From contig JAEOTS010000116.1 in NCBI GenBank assembly GCA_016839745.1, positions 1 to 64,000 on the forward strand: a DNA stretch of 64,000 nucleotides, read 5' to 3'. The DNA comes from Promethearchaeota archaeon. Its GTDB lineage: Archaea; Asgardarchaeota; Lokiarchaeia; Sigyniarchaeales; SOKP01. The translations under genes and the position numbers were made by a program. The notes beneath the pieces are model-generated. The model saw only the letters and a program-made list of their open reading frames with translations. It ran no database searches and had not been told where the DNA came from. Shown here piece by piece: positions 54,937-63,548 of the stretch (positions within the stretch are counted from its first letter, which is position 1; the number at the start of each line of letters is the position of its first letter).

Positions 54937-56361
54937 TTGTCAGAAGCGAAACTGTTTGAAATCTTTAAAAATAGTCTTAATTTTGAAGTAAGCGAATATT
55001 TGGTGGAAGAGCTCACAGAACTTCAAAAAGATATCATAAACGATGCTACATTCATTCTAAAAGATAACATTGTAGGAGATGTAAAATCCTTTGGAGGATC
55101 AATGAAAAAAAATGAGGAAAAGTTCAAGGAATTTATGAAACAGGCTGAAACCGAGCTTGAAAAAGATAAATATAAAGAAATCAAAAAAAAATTAAAAGAA
55201 TACCTTAAAAAACTATCAGAATTAATAATTAAGACTTGTGTAGCAATAATTCCCGTAAAAGAAATGCCATGGGTCGATGTAGTATTTCGAACTATCCCAC
55301 GGATAATATATAACGATAAAGTAGAACTTTTGGATAACTCTATTGCCTACTGCGGAGAAATTAAATGTTTTATTGGCAGAACAACGTTATATGGGGAGAT
55401 AAAAGATCAAGAACCTTTGTTTGCACCTTTTACAGGTAATTTAGACCTGGGCGATTACAAATTAGATGCTACTCAAAATGAACCTAAATCTCAATTATTT
55501 CCATATGTTAGTGCTCTCATTAATTCCTTAGATTCTGCAATAACTAAAAATCAATTAGCAAAATATCACGAAGAATTTCAAAGACATGGTGACCCTATCT
55601 GCGATTTTTTGATGAAGGATGATGAGTTAGTTAATTCTATGAAAAAGGTTACCACTGCCTTAAAATCAGGAAGAATCACATCAGATATTGCTGTGTGTAG
55701 TATAGCAGTACCTTTACCATCCGAGAAAAAAAGCATTGTCTTAATCACTGACGAGAGTCAGGGAGATTCTCGATATGGAAACTGTTTTGAAGCTTTATTA
55801 AGATTATCCTCTTCATATTGTCAAGTGCCTTCACAAGGTCAACAAACGCCTACTCAAGGCGTATCTGTTTCAGGATCAACTGGAGGGGGGATCAGAACCC
55901 CCGGAGGGCAGGAATTGAAAACATGGACTGCTGAAGAACTCTCTAGTGAAGCTCAAAAAAGGTTGACAGCACAACCAGATCTTCCAACTTGGAGTGAGGA
56001 GGAATTAGGAAAATTCGCAGAAGAACGTGGTTCAGGTATACCTGAAGGGATGGAAGTTTGGAAAGAAGAAGAATTGCAGGACTTAGCAGAGAAAAGAAGA
56101 AGAGGAGGATTGAATATTCCTGAATGGCAACCTGATCAAGATATGTCTGAATGTTCTAGCTGTGGATATAGTTTAAGACCTGGTTGGACGAAGTGCCCCG
56201 TGTGTGATACTCCTGTTGGAGAAAAACCTTCTGAAGAAGTAAAAGAAGAACCCAAAGAACCCTCTGAAGAAGTAAAAGAAGAGCCCAAAGAACCCTCTGA
56301 AGAAGATCAAGATGAGATTATAGAACAAGAAGATGAAGGTAAGGAAGAAACAGACCCATAA
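54937..56361 (+). CDS. uncharacterised protein with Trp/Glu-Glu-Leu repeats, zinc ribbon and acidic repeat tail
   Basis: TTG start after AAGGTTTAGAAA; CSSCGYSLRPGWTKCPVCD; repeats near C-terminus. Confidence 0.7.
   Translation: MSEAKLFEIFKNSLNFEVSEYLVEELTELQKDIINDATFILKDNIVGDVKSFGGSMKKNEEKFKEFMKQAETELEKDKYKEIKKKLKEYLKKLSELIIKTCVAIIPVKEMPWVDVVFRTIPRIIYNDKVELLDNSIAYCGEIKCFIGRTTLYGEIKDQEPLFAPFTGNLDLGDYKLDATQNEPKSQLFPYVSALINSLDSAITKNQLAKYHEEFQRHGDPICDFLMKDDELVNSMKKVTTALKSGRITSDIAVCSIAVPLPSEKKSIVLITDESQGDSRYGNCFEALLRLSSSYCQVPSQGQQTPTQGVSVSGSTGGGIRTPGGQELKTWTAEELSSEAQKRLTAQPDLPTWSEEELGKFAEERGSGIPEGMEVWKEEELQDLAEKRRRGGLNIPEWQPDQDMSECSSCGYSLRPGWTKCPVCDTPVGEKPSEEVKEEPKEPSEEVKEEPKEPSEEDQDEIIEQEDEGKEETDP
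56227..56304 (+). repeat. tandem in-frame 33-nt repeat (PSEEVKEEPKE), 2.4 copies
   Basis: CCTTCTGAAGAAGTAAAAGAAGAACCCAAAGAA repeated at 56227, 56260 and partially at 56293. Confidence 0.9.
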
Positions 56362-56528
56362 AGTTTTTCCTTAAAACTCTTAATTTAGCTTGTTTTATTA
56401 TTTTTCTGTTTGTTTATTAATGACTCAATAGCATAAAGTTTATAAGAGAGGTTATTCGTCCAATTCCAAACTTTTTTTAAGCATTTTTTATTTACATCCT
56501 TAAGGGAATAAATGATAAGGAGAATTCT

Positions 56529-57560
56529 GTGTTATTAAAAATATTTTTGTTAAAACGTAAAAATTCTCACGATTTAAATAACCTTGATATCTATAGTTAT
56601 CCCGAAGATATAGATAAAAAAGAAAATAATGAAATTGTTTTAAAAATCATTCACGGTCATGATCATGGCTCCCTAACAGAACCTTGTTGTGGCGATATTA
56701 ATACCTCAAGAGAAAAAAACGATACAAACACAAATTCTAAACCATTCGTAATTAGTAGTCCTGTTTTGCAAATCATTGGTGACCAAAATATATATACTGT
56801 ATGTGTTAACTCTGAAATGCTTATCGGGTTAATCTTTGAAAAAGACGATAATCCCTTCGACTATAAGGAAATTTTTGAGGATTTATCCAATGAATTGCTA
56901 AATACAGAAAAATGGTGTTCTTTTAAAGACGAAAGGGAGATAGAGAACTTATTAATAACCTTATTTATCGATATAAAAAGATTCGGAGACGAAATCCTTG
57001 AAGAAGCCCCAGAAGTTTCTTTTCACCCCTCCGGATTATTTACAAAAGTATTTTTATTTGGAATTGACAATGTTGGAAAGACATCCTTAACTAGAAGGAT
57101 TAAAACAGGTCAATACAAAGATAATTTTTTTACACCAAACAAGAGATTTAACATTGAGTATATCCAAAGAGAAGATGGTCTTCTTTCGATTTGGGATTCT
57201 CCTGGTCAAAGCTCTTTCAGAGAAAGATGGCTACTTGGGCTTCAGGATTCGAATATTATCATATACATGATTGATGTTGCCAACCAATTACGCTTTGACG
57301 AATCAAAAACTGAGTTTTGGAGAATATACAACGAAAACGATCTAAAAGACATACCTCTTTTAATCATTGGTAATAAGATTGATTTAATTAATCATAACAA
57401 TAATGATGAACAATTAATAAGAACAGAAAAAGAAATTAATAACTATTTTGAATTTGATAACCTACAGCATAGCAATTGGAAATTTGTTTTCACATCAGTT
57501 AAAACTAGCTTTAATATTGAAAAAGTATTAAACACGATTTTTACCTTAGTCTCAGCTTAG
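56529..57560 (+). CDS. Arf/Ras-like small GTPase with ~165-aa N-terminal extension
   Basis: FGIDNVGKTSLT (G1), WDSPGQSSF (G3), GNKIDL (G4). Confidence 0.85.
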   Translation: MLLKIFLLKRKNSHDLNNLDIYSYPEDIDKKENNEIVLKIIHGHDHGSLTEPCCGDINTSREKNDTNTNSKPFVISSPVLQIIGDQNIYTVCVNSEMLIGLIFEKDDNPFDYKEIFEDLSNELLNTEKWCSFKDEREIENLLITLFIDIKRFGDEILEEAPEVSFHPSGLFTKVFLFGIDNVGKTSLTRRIKTGQYKDNFFTPNKRFNIEYIQREDGLLSIWDSPGQSSFRERWLLGLQDSNIIIYMIDVANQLRFDESKTEFWRIYNENDLKDIPLLIIGNKIDLINHNNNDEQLIRTEKEINNYFEFDNLQHSNWKFVFTSVKTSFNIEKVLNTIFTLVSA

Positions 57561-57684
57561 AAAATCTATATAAATATTGGTTTGTCAATAAATTTATAAG
57601 CCTAGCAATTTAAATTTCTATTATATTAAATACTTTCAAAATATTGTTAGTTGAGATTTATCATTATTAGACAAGGTTGAAATC

Positions 57685-58281
57685 ATGATCAAACGACTAA
57701 AAAAAGATCTACAAATAAATGTTGAAGAAAAGGAAGGACAACTATTTTTAGGTGAAAAAGATAAAGATATGAGGCTCGTTATGCTTCGTCCTAATGAAAT
57801 CATGGAGTTTTGCGAATTCGCTGGAACAAACGCTGAAGATATCCTTATATGGGTTGGAAAATCTCTCGGTAAAATATTTATGGAGAAGTTTTTTTATAAT
57901 AAAGATTGGAATAGTGAGGCTATGGCTACTAAAAAGGAAGTCGTATTGGGCGCACTCGAGGTTATGATGCTAATGGGTTATGGCGGGCTCACGGGGATGT
58001 TCAAAAAAGATCACATTATTATAAATGTGTATGATTCATTAGCAACCCAAGAAAAAGGGAATATTATGGCTAAAAACTTGTGTTTACTGTATCTCGGTAT
58101 TTTCAACAGTGTTTTTGATGTGTTAGGCCTCGATGTGGACGGTGAAGAAGTAGAATGCATTCTAACAGGAGGAGATAAGTGCTCGTTTAAATTCGATCTT
58201 CTCGTAGACGAATTGGAAGATGGCTTAGTCGATGATGAAATGTCTGATTTAGCAGTATCGGATTTTTTAGCTTCTTTGTAA
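57685..58281 (+). CDS. V4R-domain-like protein (TRAPP/Bet3-related fold)
   Basis: GLDVDGEEVECILTGGDKCSFKFD C-terminal V4R signature. Confidence 0.6.
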   Translation: MIKRLKKDLQINVEEKEGQLFLGEKDKDMRLVMLRPNEIMEFCEFAGTNAEDILIWVGKSLGKIFMEKFFYNKDWNSEAMATKKEVVLGALEVMMLMGYGGLTGMFKKDHIIINVYDSLATQEKGNIMAKNLCLLYLGIFNSVFDVLGLDVDGEEVECILTGGDKCSFKFDLLVDELEDGLVDDEMSDLAVSDFLASL

Positions 58282-58697: not shown

Positions 58698-59906
58698 TTA
58701 AAGAAATAAATTAATCAAAGGTAGGAGCTGCATTTTGAAGAAGCCGATTTTTTCGTAAATTAAGTCCACATTGTCTGATAGAAGCCACAAATAAACAGGT
58801 ATTTTTAGTTCGGAATATTCAAATAATTTTTCTCCTCGAATAGCAAATCCATTCAGAGGAAAATCAAGCGTCATGGAAGGTTCTCTTGTTAATCCGATGG
58901 AATTATGAAAGTTTGAAAGCGTTTGCATGATTAAAGCAGTATTATTTAATAATGCTTCATCAATATCTGAACTCGTATAACTACCAAATATTAAGCCATC
59001 CATAGAAATTAAACTTGTAGCCTTTCCTTCTATCGTAGTTGTAAAATCCTCAAGGATATTTTCTATAATTTCAGATGTTTCAGATACTAATTTTAATGCT
59101 TCGCTAAACATCTGCAGAATAGTTTCTTTTTGATATATTGTTGTATCGGAATAACTAATTGAAGTTTTTTCGTGTTCCTTTACTATATTATTAAACTTAT
59201 TTTTTATCGCAGATACGTTATTCTGCCACTCGAGAGATGTGCGGATGTCCTGATCGCTTTTTGATAACACCACTAAAACTGGAGGAAACTCGTTTAAATC
59301 GTTTAATACATTCAAAACTTGACGGAAATAGTTCGCTGATTCTGCGAATCTATCACTATCCTGCGTATCAATAACATATAAAACTATATCCGCTTCAGTA
59401 AAAAATAATTCAGGTCTGTTGAAGTATAGTTTTTCCCTATATTGAACTTGTCCTCCTAAATCCCAAGAAAGTATTGGATAACCAAAAAAATCTAATTTTT
59501 CGCGTTTTACTCCCCTTGTTGGCAGAAGAGACTTGATTATTGAGAATTTGTCTTGAAGAACAGCTAATATACTGGTTTTTCCACCATTATCCAAACCAAT
59601 CATTAATATTTTTTTATGAGTTTTTATTTTTTCCTTTATTGCTTTTTCTAATACTTGAGCGATCTTAACCCATTTTATAAGTACATTATTTGGTATTTCT
59701 TTAATATTAGGAAGGTTCTCTAAAGAGAGATGTGCTAACTCTTCTATGCTTTTAACATTGTTCTCATTTAATTTTTCAGAAGAAATTTGATCTATCCCAA
59801 TTAGAGTATCTGGCTTGAATTTTAATGTTTCATCTAATTCGTTAAGAATAACCGACCTTTTGAAAAAATCTTTAATGACAATGTTCTTTGTATTCTCTTC
59901 AGACAT
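58698..59906 (-). CDS. HhH-like N-domain + Arf-like GTPase + C-terminal roadblock/longin-like region
   Basis: IGIDQISSEKLNENNVKSIEELAHL, GLDNGGKTSILAVL, WDLGGQVQYREKLY, LSKSD. Confidence 0.8.
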   Translation of the reverse strand: MSEENTKNIVIKDFFKRSVILNELDETLKFKPDTLIGIDQISSEKLNENNVKSIEELAHLSLENLPNIKEIPNNVLIKWVKIAQVLEKAIKEKIKTHKKILMIGLDNGGKTSILAVLQDKFSIIKSLLPTRGVKREKLDFFGYPILSWDLGGQVQYREKLYFNRPELFFTEADIVLYVIDTQDSDRFAESANYFRQVLNVLNDLNEFPPVLVVLSKSDQDIRTSLEWQNNVSAIKNKFNNIVKEHEKTSISYSDTTIYQKETILQMFSEALKLVSETSEIIENILEDFTTTIEGKATSLISMDGLIFGSYTSSDIDEALLNNTALIMQTLSNFHNSIGLTREPSMTLDFPLNGFAIRGEKLFEYSELKIPVYLWLLSDNVDLIYEKIGFFKMQLLPLINLFL

Positions 59907-60084
59907 GGTACATCGGATTTAATATCAATTTAACTTAATTTATACTATAACTTTATTTTATAGTAAAATATCTAATTAATAAAATTTTAGTTTTGTGGAA
60001 AACCATAATTATTTATTCTAATTGTATCATATAAATTTTAGAAATAAATAAGGGCTTTTGTAAAAGCATAAATGGTATTTGATA

Positions 60085-61278
60085 TTGTCTGAACGGCACC
60101 CAGAAAATATAGTTATCTGTATTGACACATCTAGATCGATGTACCGAGCAGACTATAAACCAAATCGCTTGAAAAGTAGCGTAGGCGCCGTGAAAAAATT
60201 AATAAATGAAAGATTTGCCGAAGATACTTCTAGTGCCTTTGCGGTTGTTAATTTTTCAGATAAACCAAAAAAAAAAATGGATTTTACAAATAGCGCGAGT
60301 AAAATTTTCGAAGCCCTAGACTCTTTGGAAGTCTCTGGGAAATCTGCAATGGGAGAGGCTTTAGGACTTTCAATTAAATTGATTATCTCAGAACTACGCA
60401 AAATTGAGGCTAAAATTCCTCGTATTCTTGTGATATCTGACGGAAACTTCACTAAGATGTCCATTGATCCCTTGAAAATGGCTCGCTTGGCTCAAGGTTT
60501 AAATATAAAAATAGATTCATTTCGTCTGGGCGAACTATCTCCTCTTAATACCTTAAAAAGGATGAGTGATCTCACGGGGGGCAATTATTATTATAATAAC
60601 GACGAGAAATCCTTATTACAAGCAGCACACGACTTAGCAATCTCAAATATTAAAACATATGGTGATGGGGCTAACTCGCTTATCGAAAATCCTGCTTTTC
60701 TCAGAAAAATTGCCGCTGATCTTTTAAGAGTTCAAGATTTAACTAAAGACCAGGAACAGCGCTTGTTACAAATAAGAGGTTTAGCAGATTATAAAAAATG
60801 TTCGATCTGTTTTTCTGATGAAAATCCATATACGAAAAGTTCGTTTTATGTTAGCGGTAGATATTGTCCTAACTGCCAAGCACCATATCATGTGCATTGT
60901 TTATCCTCCTGGGCTAATTCCCAAAAGGAGAGAAAAATGAAACAGGCTGGAGCGGTACGATGCCCTCATTGTTACTACTTGCTAAAAATTCCAACTGAAG
61001 TTTCCCAAGCTCAAAAACTAACATCTCTAGCGAAACCAATAATTAAAGAAAATAAAGGTCCCGCAAGACCCGAACGTTCTCATGTAGAATCAATTAAATT
61101 CAGCGACTTAGATTCGGACGCGATGTTTAATTCTTGTCCTGTGTGTAATTTTATATTTGAAGAAGGGCAAAATATCTTAAAGTGTCAAAACTGCGATACT
61201 CTGTATCATGGAAAATGTTTTAAAGATTTACAAAATAGTAGATGTAAAAACTGTGGTGTTAAATTGCATCAATATTAA
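60085..61278 (+). CDS. VWA-domain protein with two C-terminal RING/PHD-like zinc fingers
   Basis: VICIDTSRSM MIDAS, SGKSAMGEAL, VISDGNF; C-x2-C...C-x2-C-x4-H-x2-C...C-x2-C twice; TTG 60085 preferred. Confidence 0.85.
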   Translation: MSERHPENIVICIDTSRSMYRADYKPNRLKSSVGAVKKLINERFAEDTSSAFAVVNFSDKPKKKMDFTNSASKIFEALDSLEVSGKSAMGEALGLSIKLIISELRKIEAKIPRILVISDGNFTKMSIDPLKMARLAQGLNIKIDSFRLGELSPLNTLKRMSDLTGGNYYYNNDEKSLLQAAHDLAISNIKTYGDGANSLIENPAFLRKIAADLLRVQDLTKDQEQRLLQIRGLADYKKCSICFSDENPYTKSSFYVSGRYCPNCQAPYHVHCLSSWANSQKERKMKQAGAVRCPHCYYLLKIPTEVSQAQKLTSLAKPIIKENKGPARPERSHVESIKFSDLDSDAMFNSCPVCNFIFEEGQNILKCQNCDTLYHGKCFKDLQNSRCKNCGVKLHQY

Positions 61279-61370: not shown

Positions 61371-62252
61371 ATGATAGAAGATTATTATCTGTATGGTGAT
61401 GCGAAATTAGGGCGTGGTAAGTTTGAGTTACCCCCAATTTTAATTGGCACAATGTTTTATCAGGGTCAAACACTTATTGACAGAAAGGATGAGCGTCAAT
61501 TTGATGTCAATAGGGCAAAAAAAAGAATTGAAGCACAAAAAAGTTTAGCAAATCAGTATAAACTTCCAGATCTAGTTGAAATATCTGCCATTACACCTGA
61601 AGCTATGGTTAAATATCTCGAATTTTATTTGGACAACTATGATCCCCCGTTTGTTTTAGGTGGTAGTTTTGATGCAAAATCTGCTGGAATAGAATACTTA
61701 AATGAAAATGGTATTAAAGCAGACGAGTATATATATAATTCTATATCAAATCTAAAGAGTAAAAAAGAACTTGAACTCATAGAGAAAAACAGAATATCTT
61801 CGGTCGTAATTTTAATCCTTGGAGCCAGTAACATGAGTTCAACGCAGAGGTATGCTTATATTACAGAAAAGAACCAACCGGGTAATCTTAGTATTATAGA
61901 TGGATTGAAAGAACTTGGCGTAGAGAAAATCTGGATCGACGGAGGTGTTATTGATATTGAAAGCTTCTCCCACATTCTTGACACACAACAAATAGTTAGT
62001 AAATCTCTTAAACTCCCTGTTGGTACAGCACCTACGCTTTTTCTTTTTAAATATTCTTCACCTAGACTAAATCTTAAATATCATACTAAATATCGTAAAG
62101 CAAGCATAATGTTTATAGCGTCCTGGTACTCTAACTTTATATTTTATGGAGCAATAGAAGATGCAAAAGAATGTTTTGCGTCAGTTTATCAAGCTATAGA
62201 GCTGAAAAACGTGATGAAAAACAACAACATTAGGCTGTTTGATAATTTGTAA
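61371..62252 (+). CDS. MtrH-like methyltransferase (tetrahydromethanopterin S-methyltransferase subunit H family)
   Basis: PPILIGTMFYQGQTLI, VEISAITPEAMVKYLEF, YNSI, IDGGVIDI, LPVGTAPT, FIFYGAIEDAKECF. Confidence 0.85.
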   Translation: MIEDYYLYGDAKLGRGKFELPPILIGTMFYQGQTLIDRKDERQFDVNRAKKRIEAQKSLANQYKLPDLVEISAITPEAMVKYLEFYLDNYDPPFVLGGSFDAKSAGIEYLNENGIKADEYIYNSISNLKSKKELELIEKNRISSVVILILGASNMSSTQRYAYITEKNQPGNLSIIDGLKELGVEKIWIDGGVIDIESFSHILDTQQIVSKSLKLPVGTAPTLFLFKYSSPRLNLKYHTKYRKASIMFIASWYSNFIFYGAIEDAKECFASVYQAIELKNVMKNNNIRLFDNL

Positions 62253-62402: not shown

Positions 62403-63548
62403 ATGTATAACAACGACGAAAAAGAAGAAAAAGAAGTTGAAGCGATCAAACTAATTGATTCTGCTGAAATATTAGCCGATAAAGGAAAGGGAGAAGAAGC
62501 AATAAGAGAATATGAGAAAGCAGCACAAATTTATCTCGATTTAGGCGGTTATATTAAATTAGATGAATTGTATATCAGAATTACTCAGATAATTTCTCAA
62601 TTTAGGAACAACATTCAAGCGACATACAGATTAAAATCAATCATTCGAAAAACTGAAGAATTAAAACTATACGAAATATCGGCAAAGTTGCTAATTCAAT
62701 TAGGAAACATTTCTTTTAGAATGAAAGATTGGGAAACTGCAGGGGAAAGTTGGAAAAAAGCTTCGGATTATTTACTAGAATCTGATCCAGAAGAATATAG
62801 AAATTTAGCTTCTATTCTCCTATTAGAAGCGGGTCAAGCGTTTGAACGATCCCAATTAACAAAAGATACGGGAAAACAATTGATTTTAAAAGCAGTCATG
62901 ATCTTAAATGAATTCGACGAACTTTATAAGCAAGAAGAAAAAAAAGCCCACTCTTTACTTATTAATAAAGAATTCGAAGCCGCTGCAGATAAGTTTTATA
63001 CTATTTCCACATATTTTAAAAAATCGTTAGAGAACCTTGAAGATTTATTAAAAGATGCAGAATCCAAAAACACAGTACTAAACGCGAAGGCTAGATTCAT
63101 TCATTTTGTAGCTGAATATCAAACATTTTCAGCGATTTGCTTAACTGCTACAAGGAATGTAGAATTTAACGATAGAATTGAAAGTCTTGGACTCGATTCC
63201 ATAAAGCTATTCAAAGAATCAATATCGCTACTTAAAGACTATCTTTTTCACACTGAAAAAGATTTCGATAGAGAAATCATCTTAAGAGTTACTTTTGACA
63301 CAATGCTGTTATCAATTATTCATAGAATTTTAAATATCGAAGAAATAAAATGTAGTGATTATTTGTTAAGCGAACTCGAAGAAAATAAAGCGCTCGTTAA
63401 AAAGCTCAAAAAAAGCCCATATTTTAAAATAATAGAGAAAATTGAAAAAGCTGGTTTAAATGACGCGTTAGAAGATCTCCTATCAGTAAATTTAGGACAC
63501 TTTGAAAAGATCAAGAATGTGTTAATTTCTAACTTCCAGGAGAAATAG
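62403..63548 (+). CDS. TPR/SNAP-like helical repeat protein
   Basis: ILADKGKGEEAIREYEKAAQIYLDLG, ISFRMKDWETAGESWKKASDYLLES. Confidence 0.6.
   Translation: MYNNDEKEEKEVEAIKLIDSAEILADKGKGEEAIREYEKAAQIYLDLGGYIKLDELYIRITQIISQFRNNIQATYRLKSIIRKTEELKLYEISAKLLIQLGNISFRMKDWETAGESWKKASDYLLESDPEEYRNLASILLLEAGQAFERSQLTKDTGKQLILKAVMILNEFDELYKQEEKKAHSLLINKEFEAAADKFYTISTYFKKSLENLEDLLKDAESKNTVLNAKARFIHFVAEYQTFSAICLTATRNVEFNDRIESLGLDSIKLFKESISLLKDYLFHTEKDFDREIILRVTFDTMLLSIIHRILNIEEIKCSDYLLSELEENKALVKKLKKSPYFKIIEKIEKAGLNDALEDLLSVNLGHFEKIKNVLISNFQEK

Follow-up and report, generated by a model that had tools for sequence, protein, structure and literature searches.

Introduction

The p44/Ssl1 subunit of TFIIH has a VWA domain at its N-terminus and two zinc modules after it, the second being RING-type. 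Within TFIIH, p44 stimulates XPD through its VWA domain and holds p34 through its RING, and Ssl1 has been proposed to act as an E3 (PMC4094531). According to a 2026 review, archaea have no TFIIH-like assembly (PMC13024598). Work on archaeal E3s has so far dealt with a small, free-standing RING encoded in a ubiquitin operon (PMC5654768). In this protein, srfp of Ca. Caldiarchaeum subterraneum, mutations of I30 and W58 impair ubiquitylation (PMC5654768). A related surface is known from FANCL, in which Ile309, Trp341 and Pro360 contact Ube2T and the substitutions I309A and W341A abolish binding (PMC3979106). An N-terminal VWA domain and a C-terminal RING are also combined in plant RGLG ligases, which have been shown to be E3s (PMC12647413).

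Here we analyse a gene from a stretch of 64,000 nucleotides of a Lokiarchaeia genome (the window, by which we mean that whole stretch). Lokiarchaeia are an Asgard archaeal class related to the ancestors of eukaryotes. In the literature on Asgard archaea combined with Ssl1/TFIIH or VWA/RING, of which our coverage is incomplete, we found no description of the protein that this gene encodes.

The gene and its VWA domain

The longest open reading frame spans 60079-61278 on the forward strand and yields 399 aa from its first TTG (60079), from which all residues are numbered below. According to the ortholog alignment and a reading of the DNA, a second TTG at 60085 is aligned with the start codon of orthologs. 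Since these begin M-S-E-R at that codon, 60085 is the better start, as the sequence-only reading had proposed. About 80 genomes encode the family in uninterrupted frames, most of them full-length. The gene and its parts are as follows.

60085..61278, + strand: VWA-RING-RING gene, 397 aa from TTG 60085 (open reading frame and ortholog starts)
60100..60648, + strand: VWA domain with MIDAS D16-S18-S20...S89...D121, Ssl1-type by Pfam PF04056
60799..60972, + strand: finger 1 (C241-C298), predicted C4HC3 RING of the FANCL/Listerin/Nse1 type, with I243, W278 and P296
61135..61254, + strand: finger 2 (C353-C392), predicted C4HC3 RING/C1-like module, nearest to canonical RINGs and the p44 C-terminal RING

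The VWA domain is matched by Pfam PF13519 (9e-18) and PF00092 (2.4e-14). It had been described from its sequence as having an intact MIDAS. D16, S18, S20 and D121 are invariant in an alignment of 42 sequences, and the place of the expected Thr is taken by Ser89 in the window protein. The Ssl1 model PF04056 scores 28.6 bits on the window protein against a cut-off of 27 and matches 40 of the 42 family members at E<1e-3. Among 227 Asgard genomes, 79 yield a match above this cut-off, and among 14 control genomes none does; those of the listed matches above the cut-off that were compared by eye are all members of the VWA-RING-RING family. VWA_2, on the other hand, passes its own cut-off in each of 12 Asgard genomes tested and in 12 of the 14 controls. 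Given the absence of PF04056 matches from controls in which VWA_2 is common, and their location on family members, the Ssl1 signal is specific. It falls on VWA domains that precede RING-type modules.

The best single sequence-profile match is Rpn10 (3e-19). It is confined to the VWA domain, so a relation of the whole protein to Rpn10 was dropped. The earlier comparison with Rpn10 thus holds for the VWA domain, while the RING modules are left unaligned: the two proteins share the VWA, whereas the C-terminal half of the family protein is RING-type. We also considered DxSRSM...DxxPxR as a eukaryote-type signature and abandoned it, since similar VWA domains are found in bacteria too.

Two RING-type zinc modules

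The ligands of finger 1 are C241, C244, C263, C266, H271, C274, C295 and C298, and those of finger 2 are C353, C356, C369, C372, H377, C380, C389 and C392, both following the pattern C-x2-C...C-x2-C-x4-H-x2-C...C-x2-C. Across 42 aligned relatives, down to 27% identity, 14 of these 16 ligands are invariant, including all eight of finger 1, and C353 and C380 are missing in one relative each. Such near-invariance over this range of identity means that the C4HC3 modules are not a matter of chance and substantiates the proposal, made from the sequence alone, that two of them follow the VWA domain.

We modelled the zinc region also on its own (pLDDT 80.3). Foldseek searches with this model gave no match at E below 0.001, and we relied on VIA instead, whose Z-scores are modest here, as expected for domains so small. 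Finger 1 matched the FANCL RING 4ccg (Z 7.0, 2.6 A over 69 residues), 7kzp (Z 6.7, 1.7 A over 63 residues) and Listerin (Z 5.9). For finger 2, the matches were the C-terminal RING of p44 (Z 6.9) and those of RNF38, RNF165 and RNF12 (Z 6.4-6.7). The p44 central C4 finger was absent among the matches listed for finger 1 with this model, which excludes nothing. Plain zinc ribbons without similarity to Ssl1 or RINGs would have spoken against the RING likeness suggested earlier. We reject them on the basis of AF2 models compared by Foldseek and VIA, since both modules are predicted to have a RING-type fold, and by themselves resemble RING E3s and the p44 C-terminal RING.

Finger 1 also keeps the positions used for E2 docking: I243 in 41 of 42 sequences, W278 in 40 (Tyr in the others) and P296 in 36. 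These residues correspond to FANCL I309, W341 and P360. A profile of finger 1 reproduces this register when aligned to FANCL, although its E-values (0.025-0.1) are weak. I243 and W278 likewise correspond to I30 and W58 of srfp. Finger 2 is without the E2-docking Trp and Pro.

Canonical RINGs carry an Arg or Lys linchpin after the last Cys. In the 42-sequence alignment, neither finger has it: position 299, after the last Cys of finger 1, is F, Y or L, and position 393, after that of finger 2, is mostly G. The linchpin is not universal, because FANCL also lacks it, having Ser363 at the comparable place (PMC3979106), in a register set by sequence. With an aromatic residue or Leu at this position of finger 1, transfer may depend on a different helper residue, or there may be none.

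Thus, the FANCL RING, together with those of Listerin and Nse1, resembles finger 1 in fold, spacing, the I/W/P positions and the absent linchpin; FANCL itself, however, bears RWD-type domains and no VWA. The resemblance to srfp lies in its being an archaeal RING that needs an Ile and a Trp for work with E2 (PMC5654768), whereas srfp is small, is encoded in a ubiquitin operon, has an Arg linchpin (R69) and no VWA. RGLG ligases, likened here by description and not by sequence, share the N-terminal VWA and C-terminal RING but are eukaryotic and have one RING.

Comparison with p44/Ssl1

The AF2 model of the window protein (mean pLDDT 83.8) was compared with PDB structures. Full-length chains of p44/Ssl1 take the first 17 places among the Foldseek matches (E 2e-17 to 1.8e-13), outranking BatB, Rpn10 and every VWA-only chain. 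Model residues 2-394 align co-linearly with p44 51-387, the domain orientations being different (rmsd 13-19 A). VIA gives p44 a Z of 24.8 over residues 4-394; in the comparison of VWA folds, p44 has a Z of 24.2, bacterial BatB-type VWAs 23.5 and Rpn10 about 22-23. As VWA-only matches score nearly as high, the VWA fold alone does not single out p44. The Ssl1/p44 likeness first noticed in the sequence is nevertheless upheld by the top 17 Foldseek matches and by PF04056 scoring above its cut-off.

Profile comparison of the zinc region with human p44 gave a weak match, limited to finger 2 (hhalign probability 7%, E 0.005). A small VWA tree placed p44 and Rpn10 on the side of the family, apart from other Asgard VWAs and 4rck (support 86/90, very long branches), with p44 inside the VWA-RING-RING family (support 86/73, very long p44 branch). 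Support in this tree is modest and its branches are too long to decide the grouping, so that common descent with p44 is suggested but not established. There are also differences. Both family fingers are C4HC3, whereas p44 has a C4 finger and a C4C4 RING; the family has an E2-docking triad in finger 1; it keeps the MIDAS residues where p44 has DGSRT at the motif; and, unlike p44 in TFIIH, the family gene was not found linked to any other TFIIH subunit.

Distribution

The family occurs in 81 of 227 Asgard genomes, all of class Lokiarchaeia and usually with two paralogs per genome; named records that bear it are Lokiarchaeota, Helarchaeota and Sigynarchaeota. At E<=1e-20, none of the genomes outside Lokiarchaeia among these 227 has a member, and within the class almost every genome has one, two (G081 and G159) being without it. 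Matches to the zinc profile in a sample of 79 genomes (77 outside Lokiarchaeia plus G081 and G159) are single RING-like fingers on unrelated scaffolds with no family VWA. The viral contigs that we searched contained no relative of the protein.

Several other arrangements of these modules were seen. Three variants of the family (L056:8857-10683, L059:9719-11575 and L065:8135-10192, from G082, G083 and G080) combine the VWA and finger 1 with a different long C-terminal part, which in the L056 variant ends in a weak PCI match. The window's own genome encodes a 378 aa protein (L066:9905-11038, G000:C2) with a C-terminal finger-2-like (C1/PHD-like) finger and a different N-terminal domain. Proteins of 288-312 aa (L190:808-1671, L194:739-1674 and L210:1495-2394) have a UQ_con/RWD domain, a second RWD and a C-terminal RING, match FANCL_C and zf-RING_2, and thus have the domain order of eukaryotic FANCL. 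The protein with this order is present in G076-G079 and in G159, which may be contaminated, with weaker partial matches in G082, G041 and G043. In other Asgard genomes, predicted membrane proteins (L198, L200, L202, L204, L192 and L193; family f12) carry one C-terminal RING-like finger, of the HxxHLxxW type, and Superfamily-1-like helicase ORFs in G012 and G015 (L209, L215) also have a C-terminal RING-like finger.

Proposed function

We consider the protein to be best read as a p44-shaped, E2-recruiting, E3-like scaffold, to which we give a probability of about one half. This reading is favoured because layout, fold and E2 surface come together: the layout is that of p44/Ssl1, with a MIDAS-type VWA at the N-terminus and then two predicted RING-type binuclear zinc modules. 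The VWA domain would most likely bind a partner or substrate. Finger 1 could dock one of the cell's own E2s through I243, W278 and P296, and finger 2, without an E2 surface, may serve for contacts between proteins, as the C-terminal RING of p44 does. Ubiquitin transfer would then be carried out by this scaffold, which probably works in connection with the Rag/Arf-like GTPase of the divergent gene described below. Several findings speak against this reading: both fingers lack the linchpin, the zinc modules resemble p44 weakly in sequence, VWA fold scores do not set p44 apart from BatB-type VWAs, and linkage to ubiquitin genes was not seen. The host genome encodes E2-like proteins, three of them strong matches (G000:C144, C104 and C37), ubiquitin-like genes and XPD (G000:C105), besides the family paralog (G000:C52). 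The co-occurrence with ubiquitin and XPD that the sequence-only reading had looked to is therefore present at the level of the genome but not of the locus, as no linkage of the family gene to ubiquitin, XPD or XPB genes was seen in the loci compared.

It is rather doubtful, in our view, that the protein is instead a p44-like non-enzymatic scaffold that holds a helicase or another machine (e.g. archaeal XPD), its RINGs being structural only, as in TFIIH. Such a role would agree with the full-length p44/Ssl1 structural match, the Ssl1 Pfam model, the missing linchpin Arg/Lys, the XPD in the host genome and what is known of p44 biology (PMC4094531); the usual two paralogs per genome would parallel p44 and p34, the two VWA subunits. 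However, the family occurs in a single class, whereas most archaea have XPD-type helicases (PMC7776575), no linkage to XPD or XPB was seen, and archaea are said to be without a TFIIH-like assembly (PMC13024598). Moreover, finger 1 keeps an E2-docking triad that a purely structural role does not require.

Gene neighbourhood

The surroundings of the gene bring in further candidates for partners.

58698..59906, - strand: Rag/Arf-like GTPase (Pfam Arf 2e-20, Gtr1_RagA 5.5e-20; synteny)
59907..60084, no strand: intergenic region between the GTPase and VWA-RING-RING genes, spacing mostly 173-290 bp in relatives
61371..62252, + strand: MtrH-like methyltransferase, the next gene downstream (Pfam, synteny)
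62403..63548, + strand: TPR/SNAP-like protein (Pfam, synteny)

The strongest linkage is that of the GTPase gene, which is divergently paired with the family gene at 52 of the 54 ortholog loci; in the distant G084, G087 and G088, too, the genome's best GTPase match adjoins the family ortholog. The MtrH-like gene lies downstream in 49 of 57 loci within the family and is lost farther out. The TPR/SNAP-like gene lies downstream in 44 of 51 loci and is found near the family gene in more distant relatives too; the match of its product to SNAP (soluble NSF attachment protein) is weak. Beyond the GTPase, window positions 54937-58281 hold genes for a coiled-coil/double zinc ribbon protein, a second Arf-like GTPase and a V4R-domain protein, in an order kept in most relatives.

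These neighbours could also mean that the protein is a GTPase effector or trafficking scaffold, working with the Rag/Arf-like GTPase and the TPR/SNAP-like protein and transferring no ubiquitin, comparable to RING-bearing tethering or GATOR-type subunits. The frequency of both pairings and the Gtr1_RagA match speak for this, as does the persistence of the GTPase pairing in other families of the order. Yet the pairing is not seen at the Helarchaeota loci L046 and L047, the best GTPase match of G158/G160 and of G083 is on a different contig from the ortholog, and the neighbours of the paralog differ (ordinary synteny, MetRS, a peptidase). A shared promoter region can also give such synteny, and we regard this role as quite unlikely.

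Finally, it is improbable that a generic prokaryotic VWA protein with a stress- or chelatase-related role gained two RING-like fingers independently and so converged on the p44 layout: bacterial VWAs do match p44 in score when the VWA is taken by itself, many different Asgard scaffolds carry a single RING-like finger and plant RGLG ligases are a further case of a VWA fused to a RING (PMC12647413), but the Ssl1 Pfam signal is specific and the tree, though weak and with long branches, puts p44 and Rpn10 on the family side (86/90).

Implications

If the protein is indeed an E2-recruiting, E3-like scaffold, its p44-like shape and E2-docking RING, conserved throughout the class Lokiarchaeia, would link the ubiquitin system with TFIIH core subunits before eukaryotes. 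In a bolder version, which we think unlikely, the family would be a genuine sister group or the ancestor of p44/Ssl1 in archaea, with E2 docking and ubiquitin ligation retained; were it true, p44 would have started as an E3 ligase and its scaffold would later have become part of TFIIH. The family would also offer a concrete protein for testing the E3 activity proposed for Ssl1.
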